DNA of 64,000 bases from [Leptolyngbya] sp. PCC 7376 (GTDB taxonomy: Bacteria > Cyanobacteriota > Cyanobacteriia > Cyanobacteriales > MRBY01): positions 2,216,036 through 2,280,035 of the forward strand of contig NC_019683.1 of the NCBI RefSeq assembly GCF_000316605.1, written 5' to 3'. Positions 4,726 through 64,000 of this stretch are shown here, in pieces. How positions within the stretch are numbered: the first letter of the stretch is position 1; each line of letters starts with the position of its first letter. Under the pieces are notes generated by a model. The model ran no database searches, was not told where the DNA came from, and was given only the letters and a program-made list of their open reading frames with translations. The translations under genes and the position numbers were made by a program.

Positions 4726-4792
4726 GGCTCAATCACAAACATCATCAATTTTGTCGATCCTCCTTTGACTGTAAAGGAGAATTTGGAGAGTT

Positions 4793-5209
4793 TCAAGAGA
4801 GTAATGTTAAACGCCAATTGCGCAGTAGCTCAATACTTCCATTCACTCTAAATTTCGCAAACAGTGCCATGCTCAAGTCCACCATGTGTTTTGATTTAGA
4901 GACGACCTTCGTCCTGCGATGAAACCGAGCAAACCAATGGCGATTGTCTGAGTTGTTTCTCTCAATTGCTATTGTCTCTTTCTTGCTAATGACATGAAAA
5001 GCATCTGGGTGATTCTCTAATAGCTGTTGATAGGGTTTCCAATTATCGGTGCAATAGACAGTGATTTGCCATTGCGAGAACCGCTCTAGTAAATGACCTA
5101 AAGTTCGACTATCACGACTTCCCAATTCCCAGTCAATGAGTCGCCCAGTATTACGGTCATATGCTTTCCAGACCCAAAGTTTGTTTTTTTCTCTTGGATA
5201 AAATGCCAT
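4793..5209 (-). CDS. insB: IS1-family transposase catalytic part (InsB), IS-A copy 1
   Basis: 138 aa, the DDE catalytic half of an IS1 transposase. It overlaps insA by 112 bp in another frame, and the run of seven A followed by C (5183-5190, minus strand) is a typical slippery site for the -1 frameshift that makes the InsAB' fusion. Motifs include YCTDNWKPYQQLL and the C-terminal SKSKHMVDLSMALFAKF. Unlike copy 2, this copy has no internal stop, so it is potentially active. Confidence 0.85.
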   Translation of the reverse strand: MAFYPREKNKLWVWKAYDRNTGRLIDWELGSRDSRTLGHLLERFSQWQITVYCTDNWKPYQQLLENHPDAFHVISKKETIAIERNNSDNRHWFARFHRRTKVVSKSKHMVDLSMALFAKFRVNGSIELLRNWRLTLLS

Positions 5210-5517
5210 AGCTCATCTAGCTCCACCACGACAGCAGACTCAGGAGTGGGCTTTTCATAATTGGCTTCACCGAAATCTCTTACCCAATTGAGCACTGATT
5301 GAGCTGATACACCGAGAATCTTGGCTGTCGCATTCATGGACATACCACTCATATACATCAATACAGCTTCTAATTTCATCCAGAGAGGCTTGCCCCGCTC
5401 TTTAGAAAAGCTTGTAAATTGATAATTGCACTGCTTACACTTAAATCGTTGACGATTTTTAGCGAATCCACTTTTGATGATGTCTTGAGCATTACATTGG
5501 GGACAGTGAATTGTCAT
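5098..5517 (-). CDS. insA: IS1-family InsA protein, IS-A copy 1
   Basis: About 139 aa counted from the ATG at 5517 (MTIHCPQCNAQD); the frame is open further up to 5544 but no start there is better supported. It has an N-terminal zinc ribbon with two CxxC pairs (CPQC and CKQC) and a helix-turn-helix region (MSMNATAKILGVSAQSVLNW), as expected for the DNA-binding half of an IS1 transposase and its repressor form. It feeds into insB through the A7C slippery run. Confidence 0.85.
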   Translation of the reverse strand: MTIHCPQCNAQDIIKSGFAKNRQRFKCKQCNYQFTSFSKERGKPLWMKLEAVLMYMSGMSMNATAKILGVSAQSVLNWVRDFGEANYEKPTPESAVVVELDELWHFIQEKKTNFGSGKHMTVILGDSLTGNWEVVIVEL

Positions 5518-5580
5518 AGCGAGACTTCCAAGGAAACGACTCACTCCATTTTGCTATAGCATTACTTACTTGAAACTCTC

Positions 5581-6086
5581 AAAATAACATTGCCAACAGC
5601 TCACTATTTGCCACAATAGTTTGAAGGTCAGAGCACTTCTATCTCCGATGCTCCATGCCAAAATACCGGGTTTGAAATGGTCTACGGCTGTCCATATGCA
5701 GACTTTGTTTTTTTCGAGCCGACGAATGTTTGTAATTCATCTATCTCGCCTACTTGCGGTGTCGATTCCGGGTCATAGGCATCAGGCAAAATAGTACTAA
5801 CTTGTTTCACCCAATGAAGAATCGTGGTGTGGTGAATATCAGTGACTCGCGCAATTGCTCTTAATCCCATGCCATTGCCATACATTTTGAGGCAGAGGCG
5901 GCGGACATCGTCACTATAACCACGGTGAGTTTGGGGATGAGCAACGAATTGGCGACCACAATCTTTACACTTATGGTTTTGCTTGCCATGACGAAAGCCG
6001 TTTTTGCAGATATGCTCTGAATGGCATTCAGGACAGTTCATTTTTTATTTGACAGCTTACTCCTCCTCTCTCATTTCACCAACGCC
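5581..6086 (-). mobile_element. IS-B left half, a second IS1-family element cut by IS-A
   Basis: This is the 5' portion of an IS1-type element different from IS-A. Its outer end at 6086 carries the terminal repeat GGCGTTGGTGA (minus strand), preceded by CCATGACC. Its inner end abuts IS-A copy 1. The missing 3' half is at 63411-63931, where it abuts IS-A copy 2. Joining the halves and removing one copy of GTTATTTT restores the transposase reading frame, and removing the MITE inside the right half gives an element of about 761 bp, close to the usual IS1 size. Confidence 0.85.
5682..6041 (-). pseudogene. insA: IS-B InsA frame and truncated transposase
   Basis: A 119-aa InsA-like frame (MNCPECHSEHICKNGF) with zinc-ribbon CxxC pairs and a helix-turn-helix (GMGLRAIARVTDIHHTTILHW). 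An A7C slippery run precedes a second frame that reads WTAVDHFKPGILAWS, then continues through the IS-A boundary at 5581. The catalytic remainder, YVTDGYPVYAMYIPEED onwards, lies at 63419 and beyond. The gene is broken by IS-A and by the rearrangement, so it cannot be functional as it stands. Confidence 0.8.
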
Positions 6087-6170
6087 GGTCATGGGAGAAG
6101 GTGGTGGACTGGTTATCAACTTCCACAATATGCACTTTCTCCTTTTTCTTTCTTATCCCGAACTCACGTT
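6087..6170 (-). mobile_element. 5' end of an IS982-type element (IS-C), separated from its body
   Basis: On the minus strand this 84-bp piece begins with the end repeat AACGTGAGTTCGGGATAAG and finishes with CCATGACC, which contains the start codon of the IS982 transposase. The same CCATGACC followed by the transposase reading frame is found at 63932 and beyond. IS-B had inserted exactly there, duplicating the 8 bp. The same end repeat bounds the 254-bp element at 63535-63788, which is therefore a likely non-autonomous relative. Confidence 0.75.
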
Positions 6171-6194
6171 ATTTAAATAATTCAATTCAGAAAA

Positions 6195-6998
6195 ATGGCT
6201 CTACTTAAAAAATTTGAACATAAAGTTTATTCCCAAAATGGTGAAGATGGCATCATTTCATTTCTCCTAGACCAAGTAGGCCGAGACAAAAAATATTACG
6301 TCGAATTTGGGGCCTCGGATGGCAATGAATGCAACACTCATTATTTACGTAAACATGCAGGATTCCAAGGTTTATTGATGGATGGTGGCTATGAAAATCA
6401 TGATATTGGCTTATATCAAGAAATGATCTTCAAAGACAATATCAATCAACTATTTCATAAATATAAAGTACCTAATGAATTTGAGCTGCTGTCTATAGAT
6501 GTTGATGGTAATGACTTGTGGTTATGGAAAACTCTTGATGAAAAATATCAACCCAAAATTGTCATCATGGAATACAATGGCCATCTGCCCCCGCCATTGA
6601 GCGCCACAATGCCTTATTCAACAGAGCATTCATGGGATGGGACTTGTTATTATGGTGCTTCACTATCTGCCTTAGAAATCCTTGCCAAAGAAAAAGGCTA
6701 CACATTAGTTGGGTGTGATTCTAAAGGAATTAATGCTTTTTTTATACGTAATGACTATGTGTCTAGACTAACCAAATCATTTGCATTACCAAAGCAAATA
6801 TCTGAAGCTTTCGTCCCAGCAAATTGTGGGTGTGTATATTACATTACACTAGACAATCCTTATGGCCAAACAAGGTATGATCTCTGTGGCTATACTCTTT
6901 ATGGTCATGGCAGGATCGATCAATCAAAAGTTCAATTTGTTGAATATCCGTCTGGCGAAACTTTAATTATTCCAGAAATTGACATCAATTTTCCCTAA
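6195..6998 (+). CDS. FkbM-like SAM-dependent methyltransferase, paralogue 1
   Basis: 267 aa. The pattern YSQNGEDGIISFLL, then YYVEFGASDGNECNT, ELLSIDVDGNDLWLW and IVIMEYNG is that of FkbM-type Rossmann methyltransferases, in which VEFGA.DG would be SAM motif I and the later acidic motif the adenine-side contact. Such proteins often modify sugars of exported glycans; the substrate here is unknown. It is followed by a near twin (7240-8049), with conserved N-terminal two thirds and diverged C-termini. A MITE begins directly after the stop codon. It was set beside an IS982-type end, so its promoter region is partly element DNA. Confidence 0.7.
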   Translation: MALLKKFEHKVYSQNGEDGIISFLLDQVGRDKKYYVEFGASDGNECNTHYLRKHAGFQGLLMDGGYENHDIGLYQEMIFKDNINQLFHKYKVPNEFELLSIDVDGNDLWLWKTLDEKYQPKIVIMEYNGHLPPPLSATMPYSTEHSWDGTCYYGASLSALEILAKEKGYTLVGCDSKGINAFFIRNDYVSRLTKSFALPKQISEAFVPANCGCVYYITLDNPYGQTRYDLCGYTLYGHGRIDQSKVQFVEYPSGETLIIPEIDINFP

Positions 6999-7130
6999 GA
7001 GAATGTTTAGAAAGTCTGTTTTGAAAACTAATACCTGGATGATTACACTCAAGTAATCTTCTAAAATCCCTATTCTTTTATCAGGTGGGCAATGACAAAA
7101 GTTACGTCCAGACCCCTTTCAGACAACCTC
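6999..7130. repeat. 132-bp MITE, divergent copy (MITE-a)
   Basis: It starts immediately after the TAA stop of the first FkbM-like gene. The ends GAGAATGTTTAGAAAGTC and GACCCCTTTCAGACAACCTC match those of the 132-bp elements at 8126 and 47539, and the 3' third is nearly identical (GACAAAAGTTACG). The length is the same, but the interior differs. The flanks are TAA and TAT, so the 3-bp duplication is imperfect here. Confidence 0.65.
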
Positions 7131-7239
7131 TATGAATAATTCCGTAATTATTAATCTTTTTCAAGACTATTTTTAAGAGATAAATAAGTCAAAAAGTGTT
7201 TATTGCGGAAATAAAAACTACTTTTAACATTTTAAATCT

Positions 7240-8049
7240 ATGTCTATCCTCAAAAAATTTGAACATAAAATTTATTCTCAAAATGGAGAAGATGGCATTA
7301 TTGCATTCCTCCTAGATATTGTTGGCCGAAGAAATAAATATTACGTCGAATTTGGTGCAGCAGATGGGAATGAGTGTAATACAAGATACTTGAGAGAACA
7401 TGCCGGATTTCAAGGCTTATTAATGGATGGTGGACACGAAAATCTTGATATTGATTTGTATCAAGAAATGATTTATCGAGACAATATTAATGAGTTGTTT
7501 TTTAAATACAAAGTTCCGAATGAATTTGAACTATTATCTATTGATGTTGATGGCAATGATCTATGGCTATGGGAAGCCTTAGACGAAAAATATCAACCTC
7601 GTATTGTGATCATGGAATTCAATGGTGCACTACCTCCTCCGATTTCCGTAACTATTCCATACGATGCTTCACACCAATGGGATGGCACATCGTATATAGG
7701 AGCTTCATTGGGAGCATTAGATATCTTGGCGAAGAAAAAAGGCTATACGCTTGTTGGATGTGATTCTAGCGGAGTTAATTCATTTTTTATTCGTGATGAC
7801 TTTAGAGAAACATTACAAAAATGCGAAAGCATTCCTTCTCTTAAAGAAGCTTTTGCTCCTGCTGCCCATGCAAATTATTGTACAGGGGGAACCACAAGGT
7901 TTCAGATCAACGGCTATACAATGCATTCTCATCTGAAGTTTAATCAACAAGAACGACAATTTGTCGAATATCCTTCCGGAAAACCGATTGTCATCGATGG
8001 CATCGACCAAGGCATATTTCTCACACTAGAGGAAATTGGACTTTCTTAA
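7240..8049 (+). CDS. FkbM-like SAM-dependent methyltransferase, paralogue 2
   Basis: 269 aa, clearly a tandem duplicate of the gene at 6195. It shares KFEHKIYSQNGEDGII, YYVEFGAADGNECNT, ELLSIDVDGNDLWLW and the C-terminal QFVEYPSGK, while the region from residue 195 to 245 has diverged in length and sequence. The duplication is not recent, because synonymous positions differ widely. The 240-bp spacer contains MITE-a. The role is inferred only at family level (methyltransferase on an unknown, possibly glycan, substrate). Confidence 0.7.
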   Translation: MSILKKFEHKIYSQNGEDGIIAFLLDIVGRRNKYYVEFGAADGNECNTRYLREHAGFQGLLMDGGHENLDIDLYQEMIYRDNINELFFKYKVPNEFELLSIDVDGNDLWLWEALDEKYQPRIVIMEFNGALPPPISVTIPYDASHQWDGTSYIGASLGALDILAKKKGYTLVGCDSSGVNSFFIRDDFRETLQKCESIPSLKEAFAPAAHANYCTGGTTRFQINGYTMHSHLKFNQQERQFVEYPSGKPIVIDGIDQGIFLTLEEIGLS

Positions 8050-8125
8050 GAAGTAGCTAAGTTTATGAACTAACTCTATCTAATTAGATCAAAGCCTTCT
8101 AAAGCTGAACTAGTATTCTGAATAA

Positions 8126-8257
8126 AAGGTTGTCTGAAAAGTCTTTATGTTCGATAAATGCTGCGTAAATTCCGCCAGGTTGATCGCCTGAAGTGCTTAT
8201 TTTTACGTGCAACTCATTTCGACAAAAGTTACGGTCAGACCCTTTTCAGACATCCTC
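8126..8257. repeat. 132-bp MITE (MITE-b) with TAA duplication
   Basis: Nearly identical along its length to the element at 47539-47670. The ends AAGGTTGTCTGAAAAG and CTTTTCAGACATCCTC form an inverted repeat, and TAA flanks both sides (8123-8125, 8258-8260). It has no coding capacity. The ends resemble those of the IS5-family element at 10146 (GAGGATGTTTGAAAA), and the 3-bp TNA duplication is typical of that family, so an IS5-type transposase is the likely mobiliser. Confidence 0.8.
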
Positions 8258-8318
8258 TAAGCTACATAAATTTTCGGTAGAATACTGGCTTATATCACCG
8301 TATTTTTGACACTCTATC

Positions 8319-8362
8319 GTTTTACTTATTTGGCGATCACTTTCTATATTCAAAAGCAAAAA
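8319..8362. repeat. About 44-bp repeat flanking the pdxA relic, copy 1
   Basis: The core TTATTTGGCGATCAC, followed by TTCTATATTCAAAAG, matches 9667-9710 with about five differences. The two copies lie on either side of the pdxA relic in the same orientation. Origin unknown: possibly remnants of a small repeat element or the scar of a duplication. Confidence 0.5.
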
Positions 8363-8664
8363 AATATCTCCTAGACTTGAAATTAGAGTCTCTTTGATCA
8401 CAACGAAACGAATTGAGACTGGTTACAATTCATACTGAATTTTTCTTTCAAAGGCGATCACCTCTTTAATACTATAGCAGGCAAGGAGTGGGTTAAGACA
8501 GAATAGGATAGAAGCAATAAACATAGATGCCATGCCTGCTCCCCATAGTCTTGATTTACGCCTAAAAGCTGTTGCCGCCTTCGATAAAGGTGAACGAAAA
8601 AGTGATATAGCAGGCAAGGAGTGGGTTAAGACAGAATAGGATAGAAGCAATAAACATAGATGCC

Positions 8665-9033
8665 ATGCCTGCTCCCCATAGTCTTGATTTACGCCTAAAA
8701 GCTGTTGCCGCCTTCGATAAAGGTGAACGAAAAAGTGATATCTGTCGCTTCTTTGGTATTAGCCGAAATACGCTAGACCTGTGGCTGAAACGACGAGAGA
8801 AAATCGGTTCAGTCGCTCCGAAGACAGATTACCGTCGAGGCCCTCAACCGAAGATTAATGATCTAGATGCTTTTCGTGCTTTTGCAGAGAAATATGGGCA
8901 TCTAACCCAGAAGGAAATGGCGGAGAAATGGCCAGAGTCTATTAGTGATGCATCCAGACGTGAAGCTCTACGGAAAATTGAATTTACTCGAAAAAAAAGA
9001 CCTATCGATATCAAGAGAGAGATAAAGAATTAG
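8665..9033 (+). CDS. IS630 transposase, N-terminal frame
   Basis: 122 aa with a helix-turn-helix domain: SLDLRLKAVAAFDKGERKSD, then ICRFFGISRNTLDLWLKRR. This is the DNA-binding half of an IS630-type transposase. The frame leaves the conserved path at an eight-A run near 8994-9001, where a frameshift would lead into the catalytic frame at 9045. A truncated copy of the first 28 or so codons also exists at 8532-8615 in the repeated 133-bp unit. Confidence 0.8.
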   Translation: MPAPHSLDLRLKAVAAFDKGERKSDICRFFGISRNTLDLWLKRREKIGSVAPKTDYRRGPQPKINDLDAFRAFAEKYGHLTQKEMAEKWPESISDASRREALRKIEFTRKKRPIDIKREIKN

Positions 9034-9044
9034 AAAAAGCATTT

Positions 9045-9536
9045 GTGGCACAACTGAAGCAGTATGTCCAAGAACGACTCGTATATATCGATGAAAGTGG
9101 ATTTGATAATACCTTAGATTATGGGTATGGCTACTGCCATAAGTCAGAGAGGTTTATCGCAGAGAAGTTAGGTCATCGTACAGAACGAGTTAGCGTGATT
9201 GGAGGATGGCGAGAGGGAGAGCAGATAGCACCGATGGTATTTGAGGGCTATGCCAACAGCGCCTTAGTTTGCCAATGGGTAGAGGATTGCTTAGTGCCAG
9301 AGTTGATTCCGGGTCAAATTATTATTCTGGATAATGCCAGTGTTCATCCAAAGGAAAGAATACAAACATTGGTGGCGAAGGCAGGATGTGAAGTGATATT
9401 TTTGCCACCCTACTCACCACACCTGAACAAGATAGAGAAGTTTTGGGGGAGGTTAAAGAAGGAGGTAAGTAAGCTCATCAAGAAGACTGAGGATTTGTTC
9501 GATGCCATCAGAATAGCCTTCTGTTCTATGTCCTAA
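9045..9536 (+). CDS. IS630 transposase, catalytic frame
   Basis: 163 aa DDE domain: [11 protein letters not shown] gives the first Asp, [16 protein letters not shown] the second, and [20 protein letters not shown] the final acidic residue and the classic IS630 signature. The natural reading probably enters upstream through [18 protein letters not shown] by frameshifting from the N-terminal frame. The catalytic motifs are intact, so the element could still be mobile if frameshifting works. Confidence 0.82.
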
Positions 9537-9666
9537 CCTTCTCCTTCGCTGCTATAGTCGGATTTGCAATGCCTTGTCTGGCAATGTCAAAAGCTATGCC
9601 GTGGTCTGGCGATGTTCGAATAAACGGCGAACCAACAGTTGTGTTGATCGTGCAATCAAAAGCCAT

Positions 9667-9710
9667 TAGTTTTATTTATTTGGCGATCACCTTCTGGATT
9701 CAAAAGAAAA
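9667..9710. repeat. About 44-bp repeat flanking the pdxA relic, copy 2
   Basis: The core TTATTTGGCGATCAC, followed by TTCTGGATTCAAAAG, is the counterpart of 8319-8362. It lies exactly where the recognisable pdxA sequence begins on the minus strand, so it marks the breakpoint that removed the 5' part of that gene. Confidence 0.5.
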
Positions 9711-9738
9711 AAGGGCGTTGTAGAATAGAGGTATGAAT

Positions 9739-9822
9739 CTATGAGCATTGGGGGACAGGGACAATATCAGCAACAAGGGTATCAGGAAAAATATTACGTG
9801 CTGCATCGAGAGTGTAAGACAT
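9739..9822 (-). pseudogene. ocp: Orange carotenoid protein (ocp) N-terminal relic
   Basis: A 27-codon frame with a good ribosome binding site (AAGGAG, 8 nt before the ATG on the minus strand). It begins MSYTLDAARNIFPDTLVADI, which matches the N-terminus of the orange carotenoid protein: the [ST]hD.AR.IFP.TL.AD.VP pattern. After residue 22 the similarity stops and a stop codon follows five codons later. OCP quenches phycobilisome energy under strong light. The upstream 160 bp, up to the IS5-type element at 9983, may hold the old promoter. The rest of the gene is not in this window. Confidence 0.7.
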
Positions 9823-10224
9823 TAAGATTTACTCCTTGGATATCTGATTTACAGATAAAAAGTATTGTGTGTTCTTCAAGTCAAGCTTGATATACAAATC
9901 ACAACACAAAGTTGCATTTCTTTGTGAGTTGCCTTGCGACTGATCATTCTTGGCGATCGCCTGGGTGCTTTTTTGTTCTGTTGACCTCTTGCAAAAGGTT
10001 ATGGCAATTCAAAGTTGTAGAGACCAGCAATGAGATTGAGTCTTAATCCCCATCTCCGACGGCGGTTACGATATCGACTGGATAATATACGAAATCTTTT
10101 GAGCATTCTGAATACCATCTCAATGATGATTCTTTGAGCTGCTAAGAGGATGTTTGAAAAAGGTATCGCAAGCAGAAAAAAAGAGATTTAGTCTATAGAA
10201 GTACTGAAATCTCTGAATAAAATC

Positions 10225-10569
10225 ATGTCTGAATCATATCCAACAAATCTCAGTGATGACCAGTGGCATCTCCTAAAACCATTATTGTCATCAGTAAAGT
10301 CTGGAGGAAGACCTCGCTCCGTTGACTTGAGACAGGTGGTGAATGCCCTGCTGTATATCCTGATGGGAGGGATTGCCTGGCGTTCCTTGCCCTATGACTT
10401 TCCCAAATGGCAAACAGTCTATTGGTACTTTGCCCAATGGCGCGATGATGGCACCCTCGAATGTATCAATCAGACCCTCTACGAGTATGAGCGTACAGCT
10501 AATCATGACCGCCCTCCTCTCCTAGCTATGTGGTGGTGGATTCTCAGTCGGTGGATAGTGCCTCGATGA
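10225..10569 (+). CDS. IS-D transposase, N-terminal frame
   Basis: 114 aa of the IS5/IS427 two-frame transposase: LSDDQWHLLKPLLSSVKSGG, then LLYILMGGIAWRSLPYDFPK and TVYWYFAQWRDDGTLE. The frame loses family similarity after about residue 100, where the catalytic frame at 10530 takes over. A frameshift is needed to produce a full transposase. Confidence 0.82.
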   Translation: MSESYPTNLSDDQWHLLKPLLSSVKSGGRPRSVDLRQVVNALLYILMGGIAWRSLPYDFPKWQTVYWYFAQWRDDGTLECINQTLYEYERTANHDRPPLLAMWWWILSRWIVPR

Positions 10570-11018
10570 TTCATGAGCACGTTGGGATTGACGGCAATAA
10601 ACGGGTAAAGGGGAGGAAACGACACATCATAGGAGATAGCCTTGGTCTTTTGATGGTTGCTGTTGTCACTGCCGCTAATGTTAGTGATACACAAGGATTA
10701 CGACTGCTATTAGAGAGATTACGACAGAGTTCATTCAATTTTCAACGATGGTATTTGCTCTATGTCGATGGAGGCTATCGAGGTCAGGCGCTCTGCCATT
10801 GGGTAATGGATACTTTTGGCGTTATTTTGCAGATGGTGCTGCGCCCATCTGAACGCAAAGACTTCTGCTTACTCCCTCGTCGTTGGGTGATTGAGCGTAC
10901 CTTTGGATGGTTTTATTGGTGTCGTCGTCTCAGCCGCGATTATGAATACACGACTGCAAGTGCGGAGGCCTTTCTCTATCTTGCTTCTATTCGGTTATTA
11001 CTGAGAAGACTTGCTTAA
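10530..11018 (+). CDS. IS-D transposase, catalytic frame
   Basis: 162 aa DDE half: VVDSQSVDSASM contains the first Asp, LLYVDGGYRGQALCHW the second, and RRWVIERTFGWFYWCRRLSR the Glu region typical of IS5-family transposases. It overlaps the upstream frame by 40 bp. Both frames look undamaged, so this may be the most recently active IS5-type copy in the window. Confidence 0.82.
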   Translation: MVVDSQSVDSASMIHEHVGIDGNKRVKGRKRHIIGDSLGLLMVAVVTAANVSDTQGLRLLLERLRQSSFNFQRWYLLYVDGGYRGQALCHWVMDTFGVILQMVLRPSERKDFCLLPRRWVIERTFGWFYWCRRLSRDYEYTTASAEAFLYLASIRLLLRRLA

Positions 11019-11844
11019 AACTTTTACTTTTCAAACATCCTCTAAGAGCTGATTCTCCTGTTTCTGCTCCGCACCTTTAGGCTTCTTGTGAGGAGTGTGA
11101 CTCCGCTGATGTCGCTTGTGTAGACCTTGATATCCAGCGTCGGCAAGGCAGAGTTGTCCCTGCTGAAAATGCACTCTACTCTTTTTGAGTAGTTTGAAGT
11201 CATGGGTGCTACCTTTCTCACAGTCACAACAGATAATCTGTGCCCACTGCCAAGCAATGACCATTTGGGCTTTAAGGGAATGATGCTTCTTTTTCCCTGA
11301 GTAGTAAAGACGTTGTTTTTTCGGGCTTTTCAATCGCCTGTTCTGTGGCATCAATGACCATCACCACTACTGTTAGAGATAACTCTTCTGAACCATGGAG
11401 CTGTTTCATGCCGGGTAAGTGGAAATCGGTTTCTTTGATGAGTGTATTCTCTGTTTTTTTGCACCATGCGACAAACTGTTGATTCATGAATGCCCCATGA
11501 TTGAGCGATAGGAAAATAAGTGCGATATTCCCTCAGATATTCCAAGGTGAGGAGTAACTGATTTTCCAGGGATAAAACACTGGGACGACCGGGTTTTTGC
11601 TTTGCTTTAGCTTCTGCTAGGACTTCGACCAGACGATTGAAGGTCTGAAGTTTAACTCCACAGGCTCTCCTGAATTGTTCTGGAGATAAATGTTGGAGCT
11701 GTTCGTAAGTTGGCCTTTTTATCGCTATGGCTCTGATACTTTCCTCTTTTTTACCTACTCTCACCCCTTTTGCAAGAGGTCATGTGAATACTGGGCTGAA
11801 TCTTCTACAATTTTTTTATCTCATTACCTCAGGTGGCTTGAGTT

Positions 11845-13239
11845 ATGGCACAGCAACTAGCCGGCTATAAAAATCGATTGACAGAGTTTATTGGGAAGTA
11901 TCGTAATCAAGCAGATTTTTTGTCGATTCGTTTGGAGCAGTCGGAAGGTAGTAGTATTTTGCTTCGCAACACCAAAATTGAGACGATTAGTGAACATACC
12001 TCTCTTGGTGGGCAAGTGCGTGTTTGTCACAAAGGCGGCTGGGGTTTTGCTGCATTTAATAATCTCGATAATCTGCAAGTGAGAATTGAAGAAGCGATCG
12101 CCGCAGCTCGACTCATTGGCGATGATGAAACCTTGCTAGCTTCCGTTGATCCGATTAAAGCTGTTTGCATTTTGCCCCTAGCTGGTACTGATCCGCGTAT
12201 TGTTTCTCTACAGCGAAAAAAAGACTTGTGTGATCATTACAATCAGTTGCTCCGGGATTACGGCAACAAAATTACGAGCACTACGGTTCGCTATGGAGAC
12301 AGTACTCAATCAATTTTGCTAGTGACATCGGAAGGAACGCTTATTGAGCAATCTTGGGCTGATATGGAAATGCGTTTTGCTGCTGTGGCTCGTGATGGCG
12401 AAACGGTACAAACTGGACGCGAAACCACTGGCTCTCGCAAAGCTTTTGAAGATTTAGAAAATCTAGATAAACAGGTTGTTGGTGCAGCCCAGCGCGCCAC
12501 TAATTCTTTGACTTTACCAACAGTGAAAGGTGGTACCTATACCGTTGTGATTGATCCAATTTTGACGGGACTGTTTGTCCATGAAGCCTTTGGTCATTTG
12601 TCAGAAGCAGATATGGCCTATGAAAATCCAGATATTCTCGAAACCATGAGTATGGGACGAAAATTCGGCGGTGAGGATCTACAGATTTTTGATGGTGCAG
12701 CACCGGAAGGCCATCGTGGTAGTTACATTTATGACGATGAAGGAGTTCCTGCGACGACAACACAGCTCATTAAAGATGGCGAATTGGTTGGCCGACTGCA
12801 TTCTCGCGAAACTGCTGGCAAACTCAACGAAACGCCTACTGGAAACGCCCGCTGCCTGAACTATCATTACCCGCCCATTGTCCGTATGACCAATACCTGG
12901 ATTGAACGGGGTGAAACACCAGTAGCTGATTTGCCCACTGATATTAAGGAAGGGGTTTACGCCAGAAACTGGCTGGGCGGCATGACCAATGGCGAAATGT
13001 TTACTTTTAGTGCCGGGGAAGCCTGGATGATCCGTGACGGCAAAATTGCTGAACCCGTTAAAGATGTCACCCTCTCTGGCAATGTTTTTAAAACCCTCAA
13101 AAATATTGAGGCGATCGCCGACGATTTTTATTGGGACGAATCTGGCGGTTGCGGCAAAGGTGGACAGAGTGGATTACCCGTTGGTTGTGGAGGCCCATCC
13201 CTGAGAATTCGTGATGTTGTTGTTGGCGGTGACGCATAA
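11845..13239 (+). CDS. tldD: TldD-family zinc metallopeptidase
   Basis: 464 aa, the usual length for TldD/PmbA (TldE)-family peptidases, which degrade unfolded peptides and process ribosomal natural-product precursors. The metal-binding HExxxH motif is HEAFGH (about residues 246-251), and a second conserved region reads GRFHSRETAG-like (GRLHSRETAGKLNETPTGNA). The Gly-rich C-terminus (GCGKGGQSGLPVGCGG) is also typical. No TldE partner lies next to it in this window. The 80-bp upstream region borders the IS5-type element, so older promoter elements may have been displaced. Confidence 0.88.
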   Translation: MAQQLAGYKNRLTEFIGKYRNQADFLSIRLEQSEGSSILLRNTKIETISEHTSLGGQVRVCHKGGWGFAAFNNLDNLQVRIEEAIAAARLIGDDETLLASVDPIKAVCILPLAGTDPRIVSLQRKKDLCDHYNQLLRDYGNKITSTTVRYGDSTQSILLVTSEGTLIEQSWADMEMRFAAVARDGETVQTGRETTGSRKAFEDLENLDKQVVGAAQRATNSLTLPTVKGGTYTVVIDPILTGLFVHEAFGHLSEADMAYENPDILETMSMGRKFGGEDLQIFDGAAPEGHRGSYIYDDEGVPATTTQLIKDGELVGRLHSRETAGKLNETPTGNARCLNYHYPPIVRMTNTWIERGETPVADLPTDIKEGVYARNWLGGMTNGEMFTFSAGEAWMIRDGKIAEPVKDVTLSGNVFKTLKNIEAIADDFYWDESGGCGKGGQSGLPVGCGGPSLRIRDVVVGGDA

Positions 13240-13346
13240 CCCTGCAAGATAATGTAACGAAATTACCTTGAACTTCAAAAATAGCTGTGCCACCATATGG
13301 GTGTTCTACCGGAATAAAACCTTGCCGGGAACAGGAGGTGATGCCC

Positions 13347-13418: not shown

Positions 13419-13443
13419 ACCTCATTAATTTCTTAGGAGATTA

Positions 13444-13503: not shown

Positions 13504-13504
13504 A

Positions 13505-13559
13505 CCGCCCTCGTTTCGTTATCTTTTTAGGTAACCCTAACGAGGGCGGATAGTTTTTT
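13505..13559 (+). terminator. Strong intrinsic terminator after tldD and micro-ORFs
   Basis: An 11-bp perfect stem, CCGCCCTCGTT with AACGAGGGCGG, a 23-nt loop and a run of six T. It separates the tldD/micro-ORF unit from the dehydratase gene that starts 14 bp later. Confidence 0.85.
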
Positions 13560-47538: not shown

Positions 47539-47670
47539 GAGGTTGTCTGAAAAGTCTTTATGTTCGATAAATGCTGCGTAAATTCCGCCAGGTTGATCGC
47601 CTGAAGTGCTTATTTTTACGTGCAACTCATTTCGACAAAAGTTACGGTCAGACCCTTTTCAGACAGCCTC
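47539..47670. repeat. 132-bp MITE (MITE-c) with TTA duplication
   Basis: The ends GAGGTTGTCTGAAAAG and CTTTTCAGACAGCCTC form an inverted repeat; TTA flanks both sides. It is almost identical to the copy at 8126-8257, 39 kb away, with a handful of differences at the ends, which implies recent movement or homogenisation. No ORF. A likely non-autonomous element mobilised by an IS5-type transposase. Confidence 0.85.
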
Positions 47671-47837
47671 TTATAGATAGATGAAATAAGTAAGTTCGTT
47701 TTGAGAGATGATCGCCTGGATTCTTGACTATTGGGGCCATATTGTAAGCAGATATTTCTGGAAATAATCGGCTATATATTGAAGTAATTAGTATCCAGCA
47801 TTCGTTTGCTTGGATTTTTTTGAGTTCTTTTCAGGTT

Positions 47838-55577: not shown

Positions 55578-55746
55578 TGTGGCGATCGCCCATTGCTTGA
55601 TACGACTACTACCGATTATAAAAGCTTCACTTTCAACCGAAACTTTCAAATTAAAGAGCCATCCTGAATTATGTTTTTTACATCATTTCAGAATGGCTAT
55701 GGTTGCGTTTAAATTAAAAAATCAAAAAAGATAAAAAGGCTGTAAC

Positions 55747-56133: not shown

Positions 56134-56352
56134 ATTTTGGGTTCTCCCGCGTGAATGTGATGTAATCCACTGTGCTTATATCGCAAAATATTCGGGGTCT
56201 GCTCGGGATTCGTACCAAAAATTAATAGGGGTGATAACAAACTGATCATGATATCTACAGCGGTTATCAATGGCAGAGGTTTGTTGCTCTCCAGGAAAAT
56301 TTTTGATTATCTAGGGAAGTCAGAAAGTTAGCTGAAGGGGAAGTCGATTGCC

Positions 56353-56841: not shown

Positions 56842-56903
56842 ACCCCAAAACTGCTACATTAGTTAGCTAATAACAAAAATTTTTACCCGCAATTAATTAA
56901 GCT

Positions 56904-57602
56904 ATGACTAGCACCGTCAAGAACGACAAGACCATCGTTAAAAATTACTTTAATGCGAAAGGATTTGACCGCTGGCGTCGGATTTATGGTGATGGTGAAG
57001 TTAATAAAGTACAGGCTGATATTCGGGTGGGTCACCAGCAGACAATTGATAAGGTGATTGGCTGGTTAAAAGCCGACCAAAATCTCCCAATGCGTAGTAT
57101 TTGTGATGCGGGTTGTGGTGTCGGTAGTCTCAGTATTCCACTTGCGAAGCTGGGTGCACGTTCGATTTATGCGAGCGACATATCCGAAAAAATGTCCGGT
57201 GAAGCTGCAGAACGAGCAAAGGTAGAGCTTGGTGAAAATGCTAATGTCACGTTCGAAGCGAAGGATCTTGAAAGTATCTCCGGCAAGTACAACACTGTTA
57301 TTTGTATTGATGTGTTGATTCACTATCCCACTGAGGACGCGGCAAAGATGATCGCGCACCTTGCTTCTCTCAGCGAAGACCGTCTCATTTTGAGCTTTGC
57401 GCCTAAGACGTTCTTCTTGACCATTCTCAAGAAAATTGGTGAGTTTTTCCCTGGCCCTAGCAAAACAACTCGTGCTTATCAACATAAAGAACTCGATATT
57501 CGCAATATTCTGATCGACAATGGCTTTGCGATTGAGCGTACTGAAATGACCAGCACTAGTTTCTATTATTCTCGTCTCATCGAAGCAGCTCGTCTCCGCT
57601 AA
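56904..57602 (+). CDS. chlM: Mg-protoporphyrin IX methyltransferase ChlM
   Basis: 232 aa. SAM-dependent methyltransferase that methylates the C13 propionate of Mg-protoporphyrin IX in chlorophyll synthesis. SAM motif I is ICDAGCGVGSLSIPLAKLGA; others are SDISEKMSGEAAERAK, ICIDVLIHYPTEDAAKMIAH and LILSFAPKTFFLTILKKIGE. Membrane-associated, works with Mg-chelatase. It is the second chlorophyll gene in the window, besides chlG, and the GUN4-caspase gene could sense the substrate of this enzyme. Confidence 0.95.
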   Translation: MTSTVKNDKTIVKNYFNAKGFDRWRRIYGDGEVNKVQADIRVGHQQTIDKVIGWLKADQNLPMRSICDAGCGVGSLSIPLAKLGARSIYASDISEKMSGEAAERAKVELGENANVTFEAKDLESISGKYNTVICIDVLIHYPTEDAAKMIAHLASLSEDRLILSFAPKTFFLTILKKIGEFFPGPSKTTRAYQHKELDIRNILIDNGFAIERTEMTSTSFYYSRLIEAARLR

Positions 57603-57686
57603 GCAAAACGTTGATTGCAGAAATTTTGAGTGGGGTGATTGTTGCGGCGATCGCCCCTCTATTTTTTGCAATCTCCAAGCTTTGAA

Positions 57687-58349
57687 TTAATAGGGTTTTT
57701 GACCGACCCAGTTTCCTTTCGGATCATAGTTGCAGACCCAAACTTCTTTCCCATCAGCCGTACGAGCCATCCCACAGCCAATTTTTCGAGAATCCCGCCA
57801 CACGACTTGAGTGTAATGTCCACAGACTTTACCCGGTGCACAGGTATTCGTTGCATAGTCATAATCGTGAACTTCGTTGCCCCATAGATCGACGACCGCA
57901 GCTGACGAAAGCATTTGGCCTGAAGCATAGGCAATATTTTCAACATAATCGCAGTCAGGGCGATGACCACGTAGATTATTGGCGCTGAGATGATCAGCCC
58001 ATTCCTGTGCATAGGCGGCAATGGTTTCGTCCCACTCTACAGTTTCCGTGATGCCATAGTTCGCTCGCCAGTCATTGTGAGCCTCTACCATTTGGGCGAT
58101 CGCCGTAGGAGATGTTAGGTCATAGACATTTTCGACAATGCCTTCGGCGAGTGCTTCCGCAAAAGTTTTAATGCGTGCAGATAAAACCCCTGCTTCTTCA
58201 GAGCCATCATCTTTGTACTGAACTTTGTATTGGTAACCTGTGGCGCTGTTGTAGCCATAACCTCTGAGTCCGGCTTCGCGCCAAGTGCCATCGTTATCAA
58301 CAAAAACGGGTTTGCCATCAAAAGGTAAGGGTTCTGTTCTGGTAGTCAT
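57687..58349 (-). CDS. CAP-domain protein without signal peptide
   Basis: 220 aa. The N-terminal 90 residues are unlike the Agenet part of the paralogue at 32283 except for short strands (GYQYKVQYKDDGSEEAGVLS). The C-terminal CAP domain is intact: MVEAHNDWRANYGITETVEW, CGHYTQVVWRDSRKIGCG and VWVCNYDPKGNWVGQKP. No hydrophobic leader, and a stop codon lies 13 codons upstream in frame, so the protein seems to stay in the cytoplasm or uses non-classical export. Function unknown. Confidence 0.82.
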   Translation of the reverse strand: MTTRTEPLPFDGKPVFVDNDGTWREAGLRGYGYNSATGYQYKVQYKDDGSEEAGVLSARIKTFAEALAEGIVENVYDLTSPTAIAQMVEAHNDWRANYGITETVEWDETIAAYAQEWADHLSANNLRGHRPDCDYVENIAYASGQMLSSAAVVDLWGNEVHDYDYATNTCAPGKVCGHYTQVVWRDSRKIGCGMARTADGKEVWVCNYDPKGNWVGQKPY

Positions 58350-58529
58350 CTGTCGTAGAGGCGATCGCCCTGATATAGAAAGTCAAAAATGCTCTGGAAT
58401 CATAGGACAGGTTTTTAGAGAGAATCTCCCTTTGTTTATGAAACTTGAGAGATGCTCCAACGTGGTTAATAAAAAACCTCCATCTCATAGATGAAGGCAA
58501 AGAAAAATCTTGAAGTTGAAAGTAAAAAA

Positions 58530-58823
58530 TTATTCGCTGTCACCCATGATTTTAGGGACACGGAAAAAGTCGTCTTCCCGCTCAGGCGCATTCTCTAAAA
58601 GACCTTCGCGATCGCCAAACGTTTTTTGAGTATCTTCTCGGAAAATATTGCTGACATCAATCGCCCGCGTTGTGGGAGCTACATCATCAGTATTAAGCTC
58701 ACTGAGCTGCTCGACATAATCCAAAATACCGTTGAGTTGTTCCGGTAAAACCGCCTCTTCTTCTGGAGTTAAATCCAGACGAGCAAGCTTGGCAACCTTA
58801 CGAACCTGTTCGAGATCAATCAT
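58530..58823 (-). CDS. gatC: Asp-tRNA(Asn)/Glu-tRNA(Gln) amidotransferase subunit C
   Basis: 97 aa. It starts MIDLEQVRKVAKLARLDLTP and contains LPEQLNGILDYVEQLSELNT, VAPTTRAIDVSNIFREDTQ and the end FFRVPKIMGDSE. GatC stabilises the GatAB complex that amidates misacylated tRNAs. GatA and GatB are not in the window. Transcribed after ycf3 on the same strand, 87 bp apart. Confidence 0.94.
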   Translation of the reverse strand: MIDLEQVRKVAKLARLDLTPEEEAVLPEQLNGILDYVEQLSELNTDDVAPTTRAIDVSNIFREDTQKTFGDREGLLENAPEREDDFFRVPKIMGDSE

Positions 58824-58910
58824 TTGTTAGTTATTAGTTATCAAAACGAAAATTATTGGTTTAAATCTCTCTATTAAAGAGAACTTACGGAGGTCTTAAA
58901 GACTTAATCC

Positions 58911-59432
58911 TTAGAAGAAGACATCCATTTCAGAACGCCCTGTGGTCTTGAGCCAGTTTTGAGCTTCGATATAGTTATTGGGTGCAATGCGAATTGCCTG
59001 TTTCCAATATTCAGCTGCCTTATCAAACAATGCTTCAGACTCATCTTCGTTGCCAGCTTGCTTTGCCTTCTCCCCTTGGTAGTGATAAACCACAGCAATA
59101 TTATTGAGAGCTTGGGGCATCTTTGGATTTAGATCGATTGCCTCATGATAAAGTCCTAAAGCCTTCTCGTGGTCGCCATTACTCGCGTAAATGAGACCCA
59201 TGTTGTAAAGGATATAGCTACGGTCGTTGCCATCTTCTTCGAGTTTGAGAGCTTCTTCGTAGTTTTCGAGAGCCTCAGAATATTCACCATCCGCTTGCGC
59301 TGACATGCCGTCTCTGTAATAAGCAAAAGCTTCTTTTGCTCTGTTGCTGGTGGGCAAGATTTTGAGAATAATATCTGCCATCACCGTAAAGCTTTTGTCG
59401 ATGAAGTTATCGTTACGTTGGGTTCTCGGCAT
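58911..59432 (-). CDS. ycf3: Photosystem I assembly protein Ycf3
   Basis: 173 aa, the usual length. Three TPRs: [40 protein letters not shown] and [20 protein letters not shown]. The N-terminus [20 protein letters not shown] and the C-terminal [15 protein letters not shown] are highly conserved among cyanobacteria and plastids. It chaperones PsaA/PsaB during photosystem I assembly. Divergent from holA. Confidence 0.96.
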
Positions 59433-59502
59433 AATGGTCTAGTCGCAGGGAATAATCGTTTGTTCACTTTACCTTGATTTGTTTTGATTTTAACGGATTG
59501 CT

Positions 59503-60483
59503 ATGGCTGTGTACTTTTTCTGGGGAGAAGATGATTTTGCGATCGTCCAAGCGGTAGAGCAGATTAAGCAGTCTGTCCTCGATCCAGCCTGGTTGTCGTT
59601 TAATTTTCAAACCTATGATGGCAGCAAGGAAGAGACTGTCGTTGAGGCGTTAAATGAATCGATGACACCACCATTTGGGATGGGGGGAAGGTTAGTATGG
59701 CTGACGGAGGCGACGTTTTGTAACAGTTGCTCTGAAAGCTTATTAAAGGAACTTCAGCGAACATTAAATGTGGTTCCGGAGCAGACCCACTTATTAATTA
59801 CGACGCGGAAAAAGCCAGACAAACGGATTAAATCCACAAAATTAGTCCAGGAGCGGGCAAAGGTTCGGGAGTTTTCGCCTATTCCACCTTGGCAAACAGA
59901 AGCGTTGGCTGATCGAGTGAGGGGAACGGCGCGAGAGATTGGGGTGACATTAGATCGACAGGCGCTAGAGCTTTTGGGGGAAGTGGTTGGCAATGATAGT
60001 CGTCGTCTCTGGAATGAACTAGAAAAGCTGAAAATTTATCAGAGCGATCGCCCACAACCATTAACGCGGCAAGAAATTCAGCGGTTGGTGGCAGCAACGA
60101 ATCAAAACAGTCTGCAACTCTGTGCAGCGATTCGCGAAGGAAAAAGTGGCGATGCGATTCAGTTGGTTGGGGAGCTATTGGCGCAAAATGAACCCGCGTT
60201 GAGGATTGTGGCGACGATGATCGGGCAATTCCGGATGTGGACAGTGATTAAGGTGATGATGGAAAACGGTGAGCGCGACGATAAGGCGATCGCCAAACTA
60301 GCAGATTTACGAAACCCAAAGCGTTTATACTTTCTCCGTAAAGAAATAGCACGGCTCCGGGGTTCGCAATTACTCAAAACTTTACCAATTTTGCTGGAGT
60401 TAGAAGCTGGCCTGAAACAAGGAGCGATCGCCCAAGAAATCTTACAAACGAAGGTACTCGAACTTTGCCAACTTTTTCGTTAA
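59503..60483 (+). CDS. holA: DNA polymerase III subunit delta
   Basis: 326 aa. Starts MAVYFFWGEDDFAIVQAVEQ and shows the delta-fold landmarks LLITTRKKPDKRIKSTKLVQ, SRRLWNELEKLKIYQSD and AIREGKSGDAIQLVGELLAQ, then the C-terminal NPKRLYFLRKEIARLRGSQL. It opens the beta clamp within the clamp loader. Complete. Confidence 0.9.
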   Translation: MAVYFFWGEDDFAIVQAVEQIKQSVLDPAWLSFNFQTYDGSKEETVVEALNESMTPPFGMGGRLVWLTEATFCNSCSESLLKELQRTLNVVPEQTHLLITTRKKPDKRIKSTKLVQERAKVREFSPIPPWQTEALADRVRGTAREIGVTLDRQALELLGEVVGNDSRRLWNELEKLKIYQSDRPQPLTRQEIQRLVAATNQNSLQLCAAIREGKSGDAIQLVGELLAQNEPALRIVATMIGQFRMWTVIKVMMENGERDDKAIAKLADLRNPKRLYFLRKEIARLRGSQLLKTLPILLELEAGLKQGAIAQEILQTKVLELCQLFR

Positions 60484-60644
60484 TCTAGTGATGCAAAAAT
60501 CTTGAGAATATGGAACTTCTGCATCCGAAATTCCTTCTTTAGGCATAAGTAGAGGCGATAGCCCTAGACGCGATACTCGTTAAAAATAGTTATATTTCTC
60601 CCTTTACCCCAAACTTTCTCATCCCCTACCCACACCAACCGATT

Positions 60645-61115
60645 ATGTCCTTATCTATCCGCCTTCGCTATTTCGCCCTTGGTAGTCTCGCGACTGTCAG
60701 TGCCATTGCCCTTGGTGTTGCGCCTCAGCTCGAAGCAAATCTTGTCCCATTTTCTTGGGAACAACAGGCGATCGCCCAAGAGTTTACCCAAGGTGAATTA
60801 AGAGACTATGCCGAAGCCTACCTCGCGATTTATGGTGGCAATAGAATGCAAGACTTGTTGATGGAGATCGAAGCTCTCACCGGCGAGAAAACCAGTTGGG
60901 AAGTACGCTGCGACAACGCCAACAGTATTCGTAAACTCGGGAACCGCGAAGCAATCAGCAAAGTTCAAAATTATTGCAACGAAGAACTTCCTGCCCTAAT
61001 CGACGAGATTATTACCCGTAGCACCTTTAATAGCATCAGCAACCAGCTTGAAAATGATGAAGCGTTGCGGAGCACGATTTTTGATTTGATGACCGAAATT
61101 TTAAATAATCGCTAA
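60645..61115 (+). CDS. Secreted DUF4168-like protein
   Basis: 156 aa with a signal peptide (LRYFALGSLATVSAIALGVA, likely cleaved near IAQEFT). The mature part is helical: FTQGELRDYAEAYLAIYGGN, then SWEVRCDNANSIRKLGNREA and FNSISNQLENDEALRSTIFD. Two Cys could form a disulfide. The pattern resembles cyanobacterial DUF4168 proteins; the assignment is tentative and the function unknown. Confidence 0.6.
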   Translation: MSLSIRLRYFALGSLATVSAIALGVAPQLEANLVPFSWEQQAIAQEFTQGELRDYAEAYLAIYGGNRMQDLLMEIEALTGEKTSWEVRCDNANSIRKLGNREAISKVQNYCNEELPALIDEIITRSTFNSISNQLENDEALRSTIFDLMTEILNNR

Positions 61116-61305
61116 TAGGGAATAGAGAGAGATTAAATCAATAATTTTTTGTGGGTATGTCGTCAGGCGATCGCCGCAACCTGTTGTGGATGGGTGAGTG
61201 ATGAAATTTACAATCATTCCTTTTTTTGCCACAGATTTTCTCACTAGACTATGAGTATCTTTATAAATTCAAAAGAGCGCAAACCCATTGCCTCTCATTA
61301 ATCCT

Positions 61306-62388
61306 ATGAAAAATACCTTATCAAAACTTGGCCTTGGCTTTTTGCTCAGTACAGCAACTATTTCTAGTCCACTGTTGCTAATGCCATCGGCGATCGCCCA
61401 ACAGATTACCAGTGCGACACCCTCTGGCACAGACGTTCCAAACGACAGCTCTATCACTTGGAAATTTGACAATTCCAGCCTAGTAGAAAACGGTTCAATC
61501 CAGATTTTGGTTGATGATACCGATGTAACAGGCAGCAGCTTTATTGATCTGAGTGGCAATACCTTTGGTTATAAACCTTCTGCTCCTTTGAGCCCTGGAA
61601 CCCACGAGGTTGAGGTTCAATTTGAGTCTACGACTGGGGTTGGCTATCGAGCTGCATGGTCATTTGAAGTGGTTAATGTCGAGCTTGATATCACTGCGAT
61701 TTATCACAATGCCGTGGATGCAGCTTTAACCACCGGAGATACTTTTAACGCCGAACTGCGCGGGACACCTGATGCCACCGCTTCCATTCTCCTCGTTCAA
61801 AACGGCAATACTCTCAAAACTATTGAAGCGAAGGAAACTACTGCTGGTACCTATCGGATTTCGATGCCTATCGGTAGTGGTGATCGCGTCAGTGAAGGGA
61901 TTGTGATTGGTCGTCTCGAAAAAGCTGGACAAGTTGCCTTTTCTGTCGTGGATAGTCCTTTTGCCTTTAACCCCACCGCTGTCGGTAGTGGCGCAGTGGT
62001 CACCCAAGAAATTACGAGTGATTCTCCCCAAACAGCCTTGATCACCGAAACAGTTGAGCCTTTGACTCTGGAAGTGACCAGCCATAGCGATGGTGACACC
62101 ATTAGCTCCAATACAGGGTTCACCTTAGAAGGTCAAACCAATCCCGATGCTGACGTGAGAGTGACAGTTGTTTCTGAAGCGCCCAGTATCCTTGGTGGTT
62201 TCCTCAGTATTGGTAGTGAAACAACGTTACTAAACCGATCTAGAGCGCAAGTGGATAGCACTGGAAAATTCCAAATCGTTGTGCCCCGCCCTGCCATTGT
62301 GAATGAGGGTCAACAGTATTCGATTACTGTGGTGGCTGAGCTAGACGACCAAGAGGAAGAAATCGAATTCGTTGTCGAGCAACAATAG
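61306..62388 (+). CDS. Secreted protein with Ig-like repeats
   Basis: 360 aa counted from ATG 61306 (MKNTLSKLGLGFLLSTATIS); the frame is open to 61288. Signal peptide cleaved near AIAQQ. It consists of beta-rich Ig-like domains: SGTDVPNDSSITWKFDNSSL (residues 40-130), a middle domain with TGDTFNAELRGTPDATASIL, and a C-terminal one with TSHSDGDTISSNTGFTLEGQ. Such proteins are usually cell-surface or periplasmic binding scaffolds. No catalytic motif, function unknown. Confidence 0.65.
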   Translation: MKNTLSKLGLGFLLSTATISSPLLLMPSAIAQQITSATPSGTDVPNDSSITWKFDNSSLVENGSIQILVDDTDVTGSSFIDLSGNTFGYKPSAPLSPGTHEVEVQFESTTGVGYRAAWSFEVVNVELDITAIYHNAVDAALTTGDTFNAELRGTPDATASILLVQNGNTLKTIEAKETTAGTYRISMPIGSGDRVSEGIVIGRLEKAGQVAFSVVDSPFAFNPTAVGSGAVVTQEITSDSPQTALITETVEPLTLEVTSHSDGDTISSNTGFTLEGQTNPDADVRVTVVSEAPSILGGFLSIGSETTLLNRSRAQVDSTGKFQIVVPRPAIVNEGQQYSITVVAELDDQEEEIEFVVEQQ

Positions 62389-62471
62389 GATCTCAATTCT
62401 TAAATCTCAAGAGCTTTAGCGAGCGCCTCTCTGTTTTTAAATGACATTGGGGCGATCATAATTTCAGTCAA

Positions 62472-62606
62472 ATGCTCACTTTCTTACTACCCCTCGAAGA
62501 TGCCCAGCTCCTTTGCGAAACCTTGATTGACTATGCAGTCGATACAAAGATCATCATGTCGGCGATCTGTCTTCTCCAACGACTGCGATTTCGCCAAACT
62601 CTTTAA
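62472..62606 (+). CDS. Small ORF of 44 codons, unknown
   Basis: ATG 62472 to TAA 62606, product MLTFLLPLEDAQLLCETLID and so on to LRFRQTL. The upstream ribosome binding site is weak. It ends 6 bp before IS-A copy 2; the stop codon is not supplied by the element. It could be the N-terminal part of a gene cut by an old event, since in the inferred pre-inversion arrangement the following DNA would be the other side of chlG. Confidence 0.3.
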   Translation: MLTFLLPLEDAQLLCETLIDYAVDTKIIMSAICLLQRLRFRQTL

Positions 62607-62675
62607 AAATAAGAGAGTTTCAAGTAAGTAATGCTATAGCAAAATGGAGTGAGTCGTTTCCTTGGAAGTCTCGCT

Positions 62676-63098
62676 ATGACAATTCACTGTCCCCAATGTA
62701 ATGCTCAAGACATCATCAAAAGTGGATTCGCTAAAAATCGTCAACGATTTAATAAGTGTAAGCAGTGCAATTATCAATTTACAAGCTTTTCTAAAGAGCG
62801 GGGCAAGCCTCTCTGGATGAAATTAGAAGCTGTATTGATGTATATGAGTGGTATGTCCATGAATGCGACAGCCAAGATTCTCGGTGTATCAGCTCAATCA
62901 GTGCTCAATTGGGTAAGAGATTTCGGTGAAGCCAATTATGAAAAGCCCACTCCTGAGTCTGCTGTCGTGGTGGAGCTAGATGAGCTATGGCATTTTATCC
63001 AAGAGAAAAAAACAAACTTTGGGTCTGGAAAGCATATGACCGTAATACTGGGCGACTCATTGACTGGGAATTGGGAAGTCGTGATAGTCGAACTTTAG
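62676..63098 (+). CDS. insA: IS1-family InsA protein, IS-A copy 2
   Basis: About 140 aa from ATG 62676 (MTIHCPQCNAQD). Identical to the copy 1 protein apart from one extra Asn in the zinc ribbon (RQRFNKCKQC instead of RQRFKCKQC), caused by a 3-bp insertion. This lengthens the spacing near the second CxxC, which might affect zinc binding. The A7C slippery run is at 63006-63013. Confidence 0.8.
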   Translation: MTIHCPQCNAQDIIKSGFAKNRQRFNKCKQCNYQFTSFSKERGKPLWMKLEAVLMYMSGMSMNATAKILGVSAQSVLNWVRDFGEANYEKPTPESAVVVELDELWHFIQEKKTNFGSGKHMTVILGDSLTGNWEVVIVEL

Positions 63099-63403
63099 GT
63101 CATTTACTAGAGCGGTTATCGCAATGACAAATCACTGTCTATTGCACCGATAATTGGAAACCCTATCAACAGCTATTAGAGAATCACCCAGATGCTTTTC
63201 ATGTCATTAGCAAGAAAGAGACAATAGCAATTGAGAGAAACAACTCAGATAATCGCCATTGGTTTGCTTGGTTTCATCGCAGGACGAAGGTCGTCTCTAA
63301 ATCAAAACACATGGTGGACTTGAGCATGGCACTGTTTGCGAAATTTAGAGTGAATGGAAGTATTGAGCTACTGCGCAATTGGCGTTTAACATTACTCTCT
63401 TGA
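62987..63403 (+). pseudogene. insB: InsB of IS-A copy 2 with nonsense mutation
   Basis: The frame follows copy 1 (MAFYPREKNKLWVWKAYDRN) until TGA at 63125-63127, where copy 1 has a Trp codon TGG (SQWQITVYC). Beyond it the frame continues unbroken to the normal stop at 63401-63403. Copy 2 thus cannot make a full catalytic protein without readthrough; it could still be moved in trans by copy 1. Confidence 0.85.
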
Positions 63404-63410
63404 AACTCTC

Positions 63411-63886
63411 GTTATTTTTACGTGACCGATGGTTATCCTGTTTACGCTATGTACATTCCTGAGGAAGACCGAATTATCAGCAAGACATATATGACCAGAG
63501 TAGAAGGAGAAAACGGTCGTTTAAGAAACTATCTAACGTGAGTTCGGGATAAGAACAACAGGAAAAAGTCTTTCCTAATCTGGGTTTGAGACTTCTTGAT
63601 TCTTTATTGAGCAGCGATTATTTTATGCAATATTCTACTGATTGAGCTCAATCAATACAATATTTTCAATTAGAATGCTTTATTGCGAATCAGTACATAG
63701 ATGAAATTCCAAACAAACTCTTGATTTATAGGAGTTTCAGGCTAACTTGTCGGGATTTCATCCTAATTCCTTAACCCGAACTCACGTTATCTAGCTCGTT
63801 TACATCGCAAAACACTTTGCTATTCAAGGTCGGTGGAAATGTTAGCTAACTCTCTCAAGTTACTGATTCACTACCTCAAGTTTTAG
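63411..63886 (+). pseudogene. insB: IS-B transposase, C-terminal part
   Basis: The frame reads YVTDGYPVYAMYIPEEDRII, SKTYMTRVEGENGRLRNYL up to the MITE at 63535, and after it ARLHRKTLCYSRSVEMLANS, LKLLIHYLKF and stop at 63884. These are the most conserved motifs of IS1-type transposases. The gene is broken three ways: separated from its N-terminal half, cut by IS-A, and cut by the MITE. Confidence 0.82.
63535..63788. repeat. 254-bp MITE with IS982-type ends (MITE-d)
   Basis: Perfect inverted ends AACGTGAGTTCGGG and CCCGAACTCACGTT, flanked by a 4-bp duplication ATCT (63531-63534, 63789-63792). Removing it with one ATCT restores the transposase frame of IS-B (NYLARLHRK). The ends are identical to that of the IS982-type fragment at 6170, so it is a non-autonomous derivative, probably an internal deletion of such an element. 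No ORF. Confidence 0.85.
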
Positions 63887-63933
63887 GATGTACCTGTGCC
63901 GTTGAGAAACATCCCTTAACTCACCAACGCCCC

Positions 63934-64000
63934 ATGACCAGTCTAGAGCCTTTGTTTTGTGCCGTTGATGATTTCGCCAAGTCTTCGAATCTCAATGGCA
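63934..64000 (+). CDS. IS982-family transposase, start only (runs off the window)
   Basis: ATG 63934 opens MTSLEPLFCAVDDFAKSSNL, which matches the N-terminus of IS982-family transposases (pattern MTSLE.LFC.VDDFC). The ATG lies within the 8-bp duplication created by IS-B, and its original upstream DNA is now at 6087-6170. The transposase was thereby cut from its promoter side. The body lies beyond the right edge. Confidence 0.7.
   Translation, partial: MTSLEPLFCAVDDFAKSSNLNG

Follow-up and report, generated by a model that had tools for sequence, protein, structure and literature searches.

A split insertion sequence beside inverted IS1-family copies points to a probable 57-kb inversion next to chlG

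Two near-identical copies of an insertion sequence, here called IS-A, lie in opposite orientation at the two ends of a 57-kb block of DNA, an arrangement by which IS-mediated inversion is recognized, and pieces of a second insertion sequence, IS-B, lie beside both of them. The question that this locus raises is whether the block was turned around between the IS-A copies and which genes were neighbors before that. We analyzed a window of 64 kb (G000:C1:2216036-2280035) in a genome that is assembled as a single contig of 5,125,950 bases; the features are collected in Table 1.

Table 1. Features at the two ends of the 57-kb block and in its neighborhood (positions are those of the window).
Feature	Position	Strand	Basis or remark
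chlG (chlorophyll synthase), just outside left junction	3730..4725	+	NCBIfam TIGR02056 ChlG
IS-A copy 1	4786..5580	-	795 bp, IS1 family; repeat arms, domains, alignment
Half of split IS-A target duplication, AAAATAAC	5581..5588	.	sequence, flanks, L032 match
IS-B, first part (includes frame 5682-6041)	5581..6086	-	99.2% over 506 columns to L032
Outer IS-B duplication, copy 1, GGTCATGG	6087..6094	.	sequence
PmbA/TldD-like gene, inside block	11845..13239	+	Pfam
366-aa gene, no assigned function, last sizeable gene inside block	61288..62388	+	
IS-A copy 2	62613..63410	+	798 bp; 5 events away from copy 1
Other half of split IS-A target duplication, GTTATTTT	63411..63418	.	sequence, flanks, L032 match
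IS-B, second part	63411..63931	+	98.4% and 98.6% to L032 either side of small element
Small element nested in IS-B	~63535-63788		inverted ends ACGTGAGTTCGGG, read by eye
Outer IS-B duplication, copy 2, CCATGACC	63932..63939	.	sequence
Orange carotenoid protein gene, outside block	about 67.6 kb		Pfam Carot_N

A preliminary description of this DNA had placed two inverted IS-A copies at these positions, and the repeat arms bear out its coordinates: 4786-5443 pairs with 62753-63410 (658 nt, 99% identity) and 5441-5580 pairs with 62613-62752 (140 nt, 100% identity). Copy 1 has transposase frames at 5098-5544 and 4793-5209, which overlap, and its sequence is that of the consensus of 23 aligned copies. 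The IS-A frames match PF03400 DDE_Tnp_IS1 at 63.6 bits (cut-off 24.1) and PF03811 Zn_ribbon_InsA at 30.2 bits (cut-off 26.1). IS-A was assigned to the IS1 family by these Pfam domains and the overlapping frames rather than by a match to a named element, and it resembles that family in carrying both domains in overlapping frames, in its length of ~0.8 kb and in its 8-bp duplications. The target duplication of IS1 is 8-9 bp.

The genome contains at least 35 whole and partial matches to IS-A among the best 40 of 54 candidates scored. We counted 22 two-ended copies; outside this count are L019, which has lost one end, the interrupted copy L021, the partial matches L025-L030 and five shorter ones. 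The flanks agree at 8 of 8 positions in 10 of the 22 copies and at 7 of 8 in two more, which indicates that IS-A normally makes a duplication, and the remaining ten have none. The outer flanks of L021 also agree at 8 of 8. Both window copies belong to the ten without a duplication, so the earlier statement that neither is surrounded by a direct repeat of its own held in the flank comparison; the other eight are L005, L006, L007, L008, L009, L012, L018 and L020. Among the partial matches, L025, L026 and L029 end at IS-A position 587 or start at 566 and abut one common sequence from outside IS-A, TAGCAGCGAAGGAGAAGG or the complement of it, a pattern that the insertion of another element at that point would give.

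The evidence on the old junction comes mainly from IS-B. An uninterrupted IS-B, L032 (G000:C1:1569549-1573052), exists elsewhere in the same genome, and it spans both half-elements of the window. The first part matches it as far as position 5581; the stretch 63411-63535 then continues the match at 98.4% over 125 bases, and the match resumes at the far end of IS-B, where 63788-63931 is 98.6% identical over 144. Within L032, the overlap of the two half-matches is exactly the 8-mer of the IS-A flanks (1997-2004). Because L032 runs through both halves with these 8 bases of overlap, positions 5581 and 63411 were once neighbors, and joining the flanks restores IS-B, as had been proposed from the window itself. 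The proposed outer 8-bp duplication of IS-B is also present, and its two copies are inverted relative to each other, which is what a flip requires. The split element was thus read correctly in the preliminary description, and two details change: IS-B ends at 6086, and its right part holds a further small element. An intact IS-B elsewhere with different outer flanks, which had been named as grounds for rejecting the inversion, is literally present in the form of L032. L032 is a separate insertion, however, and because it shows IS-B uninterrupted, it counts as support for the split. Stretches related to the small element were seen in L005, L012, L048 and L059; L012 contains an IS-A copy directly next to such a piece.

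The flanks of the two IS-A copies were also compared directly (the L027 entry in this comparison is not a true IS end, and L021 stayed outside the counts). In the common orientation of the IS, copy 1 lies between AGAATTTG and AAAATAAC, and copy 2 lies between AAAATAAC and TTATTTTT. The shared flank noticed earlier is thus a single 8-mer, AAAATAAC/GTTATTTT, common crosswise to the inner flank of copy 1 and the outer flank of copy 2. With random 8-mers of the same composition, an exact crosswise match would arise for at least one pair of the ten duplication-less copies with a probability of ~0.014, so that the 8-mer taken alone is only suggestive. Nor is it proof by itself in view of three other exact crosswise matches in a wider set (L004/L009, L006/L029 and L025/L017), since the right flanks of L004 and L009 agree beyond the 8 bases and the L006/L029 match is a run of A. 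We consider the IS-B evidence for the old junction to be much stronger than that of the 8-mer. An exchange of duplications between the copies is seen for AAAATAAC but not for the chlG-side pair, where AGAATTTG and TTATTTTT do not match, in accordance with the preliminary description. No partner for either chlG-side flank was found among the other IS-A ends compared (best 40 of 54 candidates), and a third IS-A copy as the source of these orphan flanks was discarded on this comparison.

Un-flipping the block would bring the PmbA/TldD-like gene next to the orange carotenoid protein gene, and the preliminary description had called for a comparison of gene order in close relatives. In four of five genomes of the same genus, these two genes are divergent neighbors, as un-flipping predicts. 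The gap between the alignment ends is 251 bp in G005, 279 bp in G003, 237 bp in G002 and 234 bp in G001; the same two points are 55.7 kb apart in the genome studied here. The order within the block from 11.9 to 26.1 kb is the same as in these four relatives. In the fifth, G004, the two genes lie on different contigs, with the PmbA match beginning at base 421 of its contig. Upstream of the orange carotenoid protein gene of G004, the remaining 2 kb of the contig are without a match here; even if linked, the two genes would therefore not be close neighbors in this relative.

On the two sides of the old junction, ~10 kb in all (5581-11845 plus 63411-67583) lie between these genes, as against less than 300 bp between the alignment ends in four relatives, and hold IS-B, an IS630-like frame and an IS982-like fragment below the cut-off. 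A 133-bp sequence is duplicated exactly in tandem at 8473-8738, and this pair overlaps the start of the IS630-like frame (8665-9033). A sequence of 132 bp occurs twice in the block at 99% identity (8127-8258 and 47540-47671) and is possibly another small mobile element.

At the other junction, chlG was identified by a match of 572.6 bits to TIGR02056 (cut-off 436.45). The un-flipped order here would place chlG opposite the 366-aa gene, and one of the five relatives, G005, has it: chlG and the homologue of this gene are convergent on one contig, with 4.5 kb between them. In a protein search, the 366-aa gene was present in two of six genomes, G000 and G005, and was not found in G001-G004; in a wider scan of genome contigs, 80 stretches matched and none was confirmed. 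The 4.5-kb interval in G005 contains a Uma2 gene, a 397-aa gene and a META/YscW-domain gene. The proteins of the latter two have no match in this genome, and at the DNA level the interval gives short matches of about 35-104 bases here (best 40 of 205 candidates). Because these two genes are without a match here, a deletion between two IS-A copies beside chlG is a plausible but unproven reason for the absent duplication. It is equally possible that G005 gained the extra genes: none of the other five genomes has the 397-aa gene, and the META-domain gene has one weak match outside G005, in G003 (E 3.3e-5).

On its other side, the 366-aa homologue in G005 adjoins a large chlH-like gene (named by eye); in the genome studied here, the DNA matching that gene is at 47-52 kb of the contig, about 2.2 Mb from the window. 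The neighborhood of the 366-aa gene was thus rearranged in other ways too. In G003, the matches at 58.5-60.5 and 60.8-61.0 kb follow the same order as here. Overall, one genome supports the un-flipped order on the chlG side, whose past is more complicated. The present arrangement, chlG beside the genes labeled FkbM, was seen in none of the stretches downstream of chlG examined in G001-G005, and none of these stretches matches 5581-8100. The FkbM label itself is weak: for the first frame (6195-6998), the Pfam FkbM match stays below the threshold (E 0.045), and the second (7240-8049) has none.

These results show that positions 5581 and 63411 used to adjoin each other and that the gene order has changed. 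From them, we infer crossing over as the mechanism, an order of events and a deletion. IS-B would first have landed in the space between the PmbA/TldD-like and orange carotenoid protein genes. It would then have received a small element and a copy of IS-A, the latter with an 8-bp duplication. A second IS-A would have lain in opposite orientation ~57 kb away, downstream of chlG, and crossing over between the inverted copies would have flipped the DNA between them, parting IS-B and its IS-A duplication to opposite ends of the block. By then, the chlG-side IS-A would have lacked its duplication, which an IS-A-mediated deletion next to it may have removed. This history, a 57-kb flip by homologous recombination after IS-A had entered IS-B, is the probable one, and the inversion proposed in the preliminary description finds support in L032 and in the gene order of relatives at both junctions.

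Replicative intramolecular transposition would end in the same arrangement, with the 8-mer split as observed. In that event, a lone IS-A would have lain downstream of chlG and attacked an intact IS-B at a distance of 57 kb, and the IS would have been copied, the target duplicated and the intervening DNA inverted at once, so that one earlier copy of IS-A suffices. The two copies would then have been identical at birth, yet they are 5 events apart, which is also the median distance over the 153 pairs that 18 similar copies form. Twelve other copies are nearer to copy 1 than copy 2 is, and four of the five variants of copy 2 are shared with third copies: the 3-base insertion, for which L014 is the only other carrier, and three of the four substitutions. 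Seen from copy 2, the margin is small, with the nearest other copies, L003 and L011, at 4 events, one event nearer than copy 1; gene conversion among the copies could blur such distances and could mimic this pattern. Because the window copies are not each other's closest relatives, their sequences would mildly favor two independent copies and crossing over, and we regard replicative transposition as improbable. The shared variants were also considered as a guide to the crossover point inside IS-A, and five differences do not fix its position.

An error of assembly at the repeats would require no inversion in the living strain, which would have the order of the relatives, or both orders would coexist in the culture. 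The repeat extends over 0.8 kb with 99-100% identity, and four of the five relatives have the other order, with the fifth unreadable. Against this, the single 5.13-Mb contig resolves 22 two-ended IS-A copies, 12 of them with flanks that agree at 7 or 8 of 8 positions. We consider this explanation improbable, although the reservation of the preliminary description about a wrong assembly at this repeat stands. A history of several steps, in which another IS-A copy was involved and the chlG junction arose from a different exchange, so that there was never one 57-kb flip, has a small but real chance of being correct; it overlaps in part with crossing over between the two window copies, and the two are not mutually exclusive. 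The ten duplication-less copies, eight of them beyond the window pair, make other IS-A exchanges likely, and the block is a mosaic relative to G005, with pieces on several contigs. On the other hand, neither orphan flank is matched by a third IS-A end among the ends compared, and the chlG side of G005 has the order that a single flip predicts. On a speculative note, IS-A may have been a recent major rearranger of this genome, with each of the ten duplication-less copies a past exchange, the order of events readable from shared 8-mers and the 57-kb block perhaps still flipping in culture; we think this rather unlikely.

Both junctions cut mobile-element DNA only, and the nearest host genes, chlG and the 366-aa gene, are complete frames. 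For these reasons, no functional effect of the flip is expected. The locus provides a worked example of how an insertion sequence at a breakpoint reveals an earlier chromosome order from one genome, with relatives confirming it. It also calls for caution about this assembly, in which the order of genes near chlG and near the orange carotenoid protein gene is a derived one.

IS-mediated inversion is a general and long-known process in bacteria (PMC5101192). No report of this particular 57-kb inversion was found among the titles and abstract openings listed; the inversion is a new example, and the process is ordinary and well known. The locus resembles inversions by homologous recombination between IS copies in its near-identical inverted end copies, its split duplication and its changed gene order. 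It differs from them in that only one of the two duplications is seen, and in that the breakpoint lies inside another insertion sequence, so that the old join can still be read.
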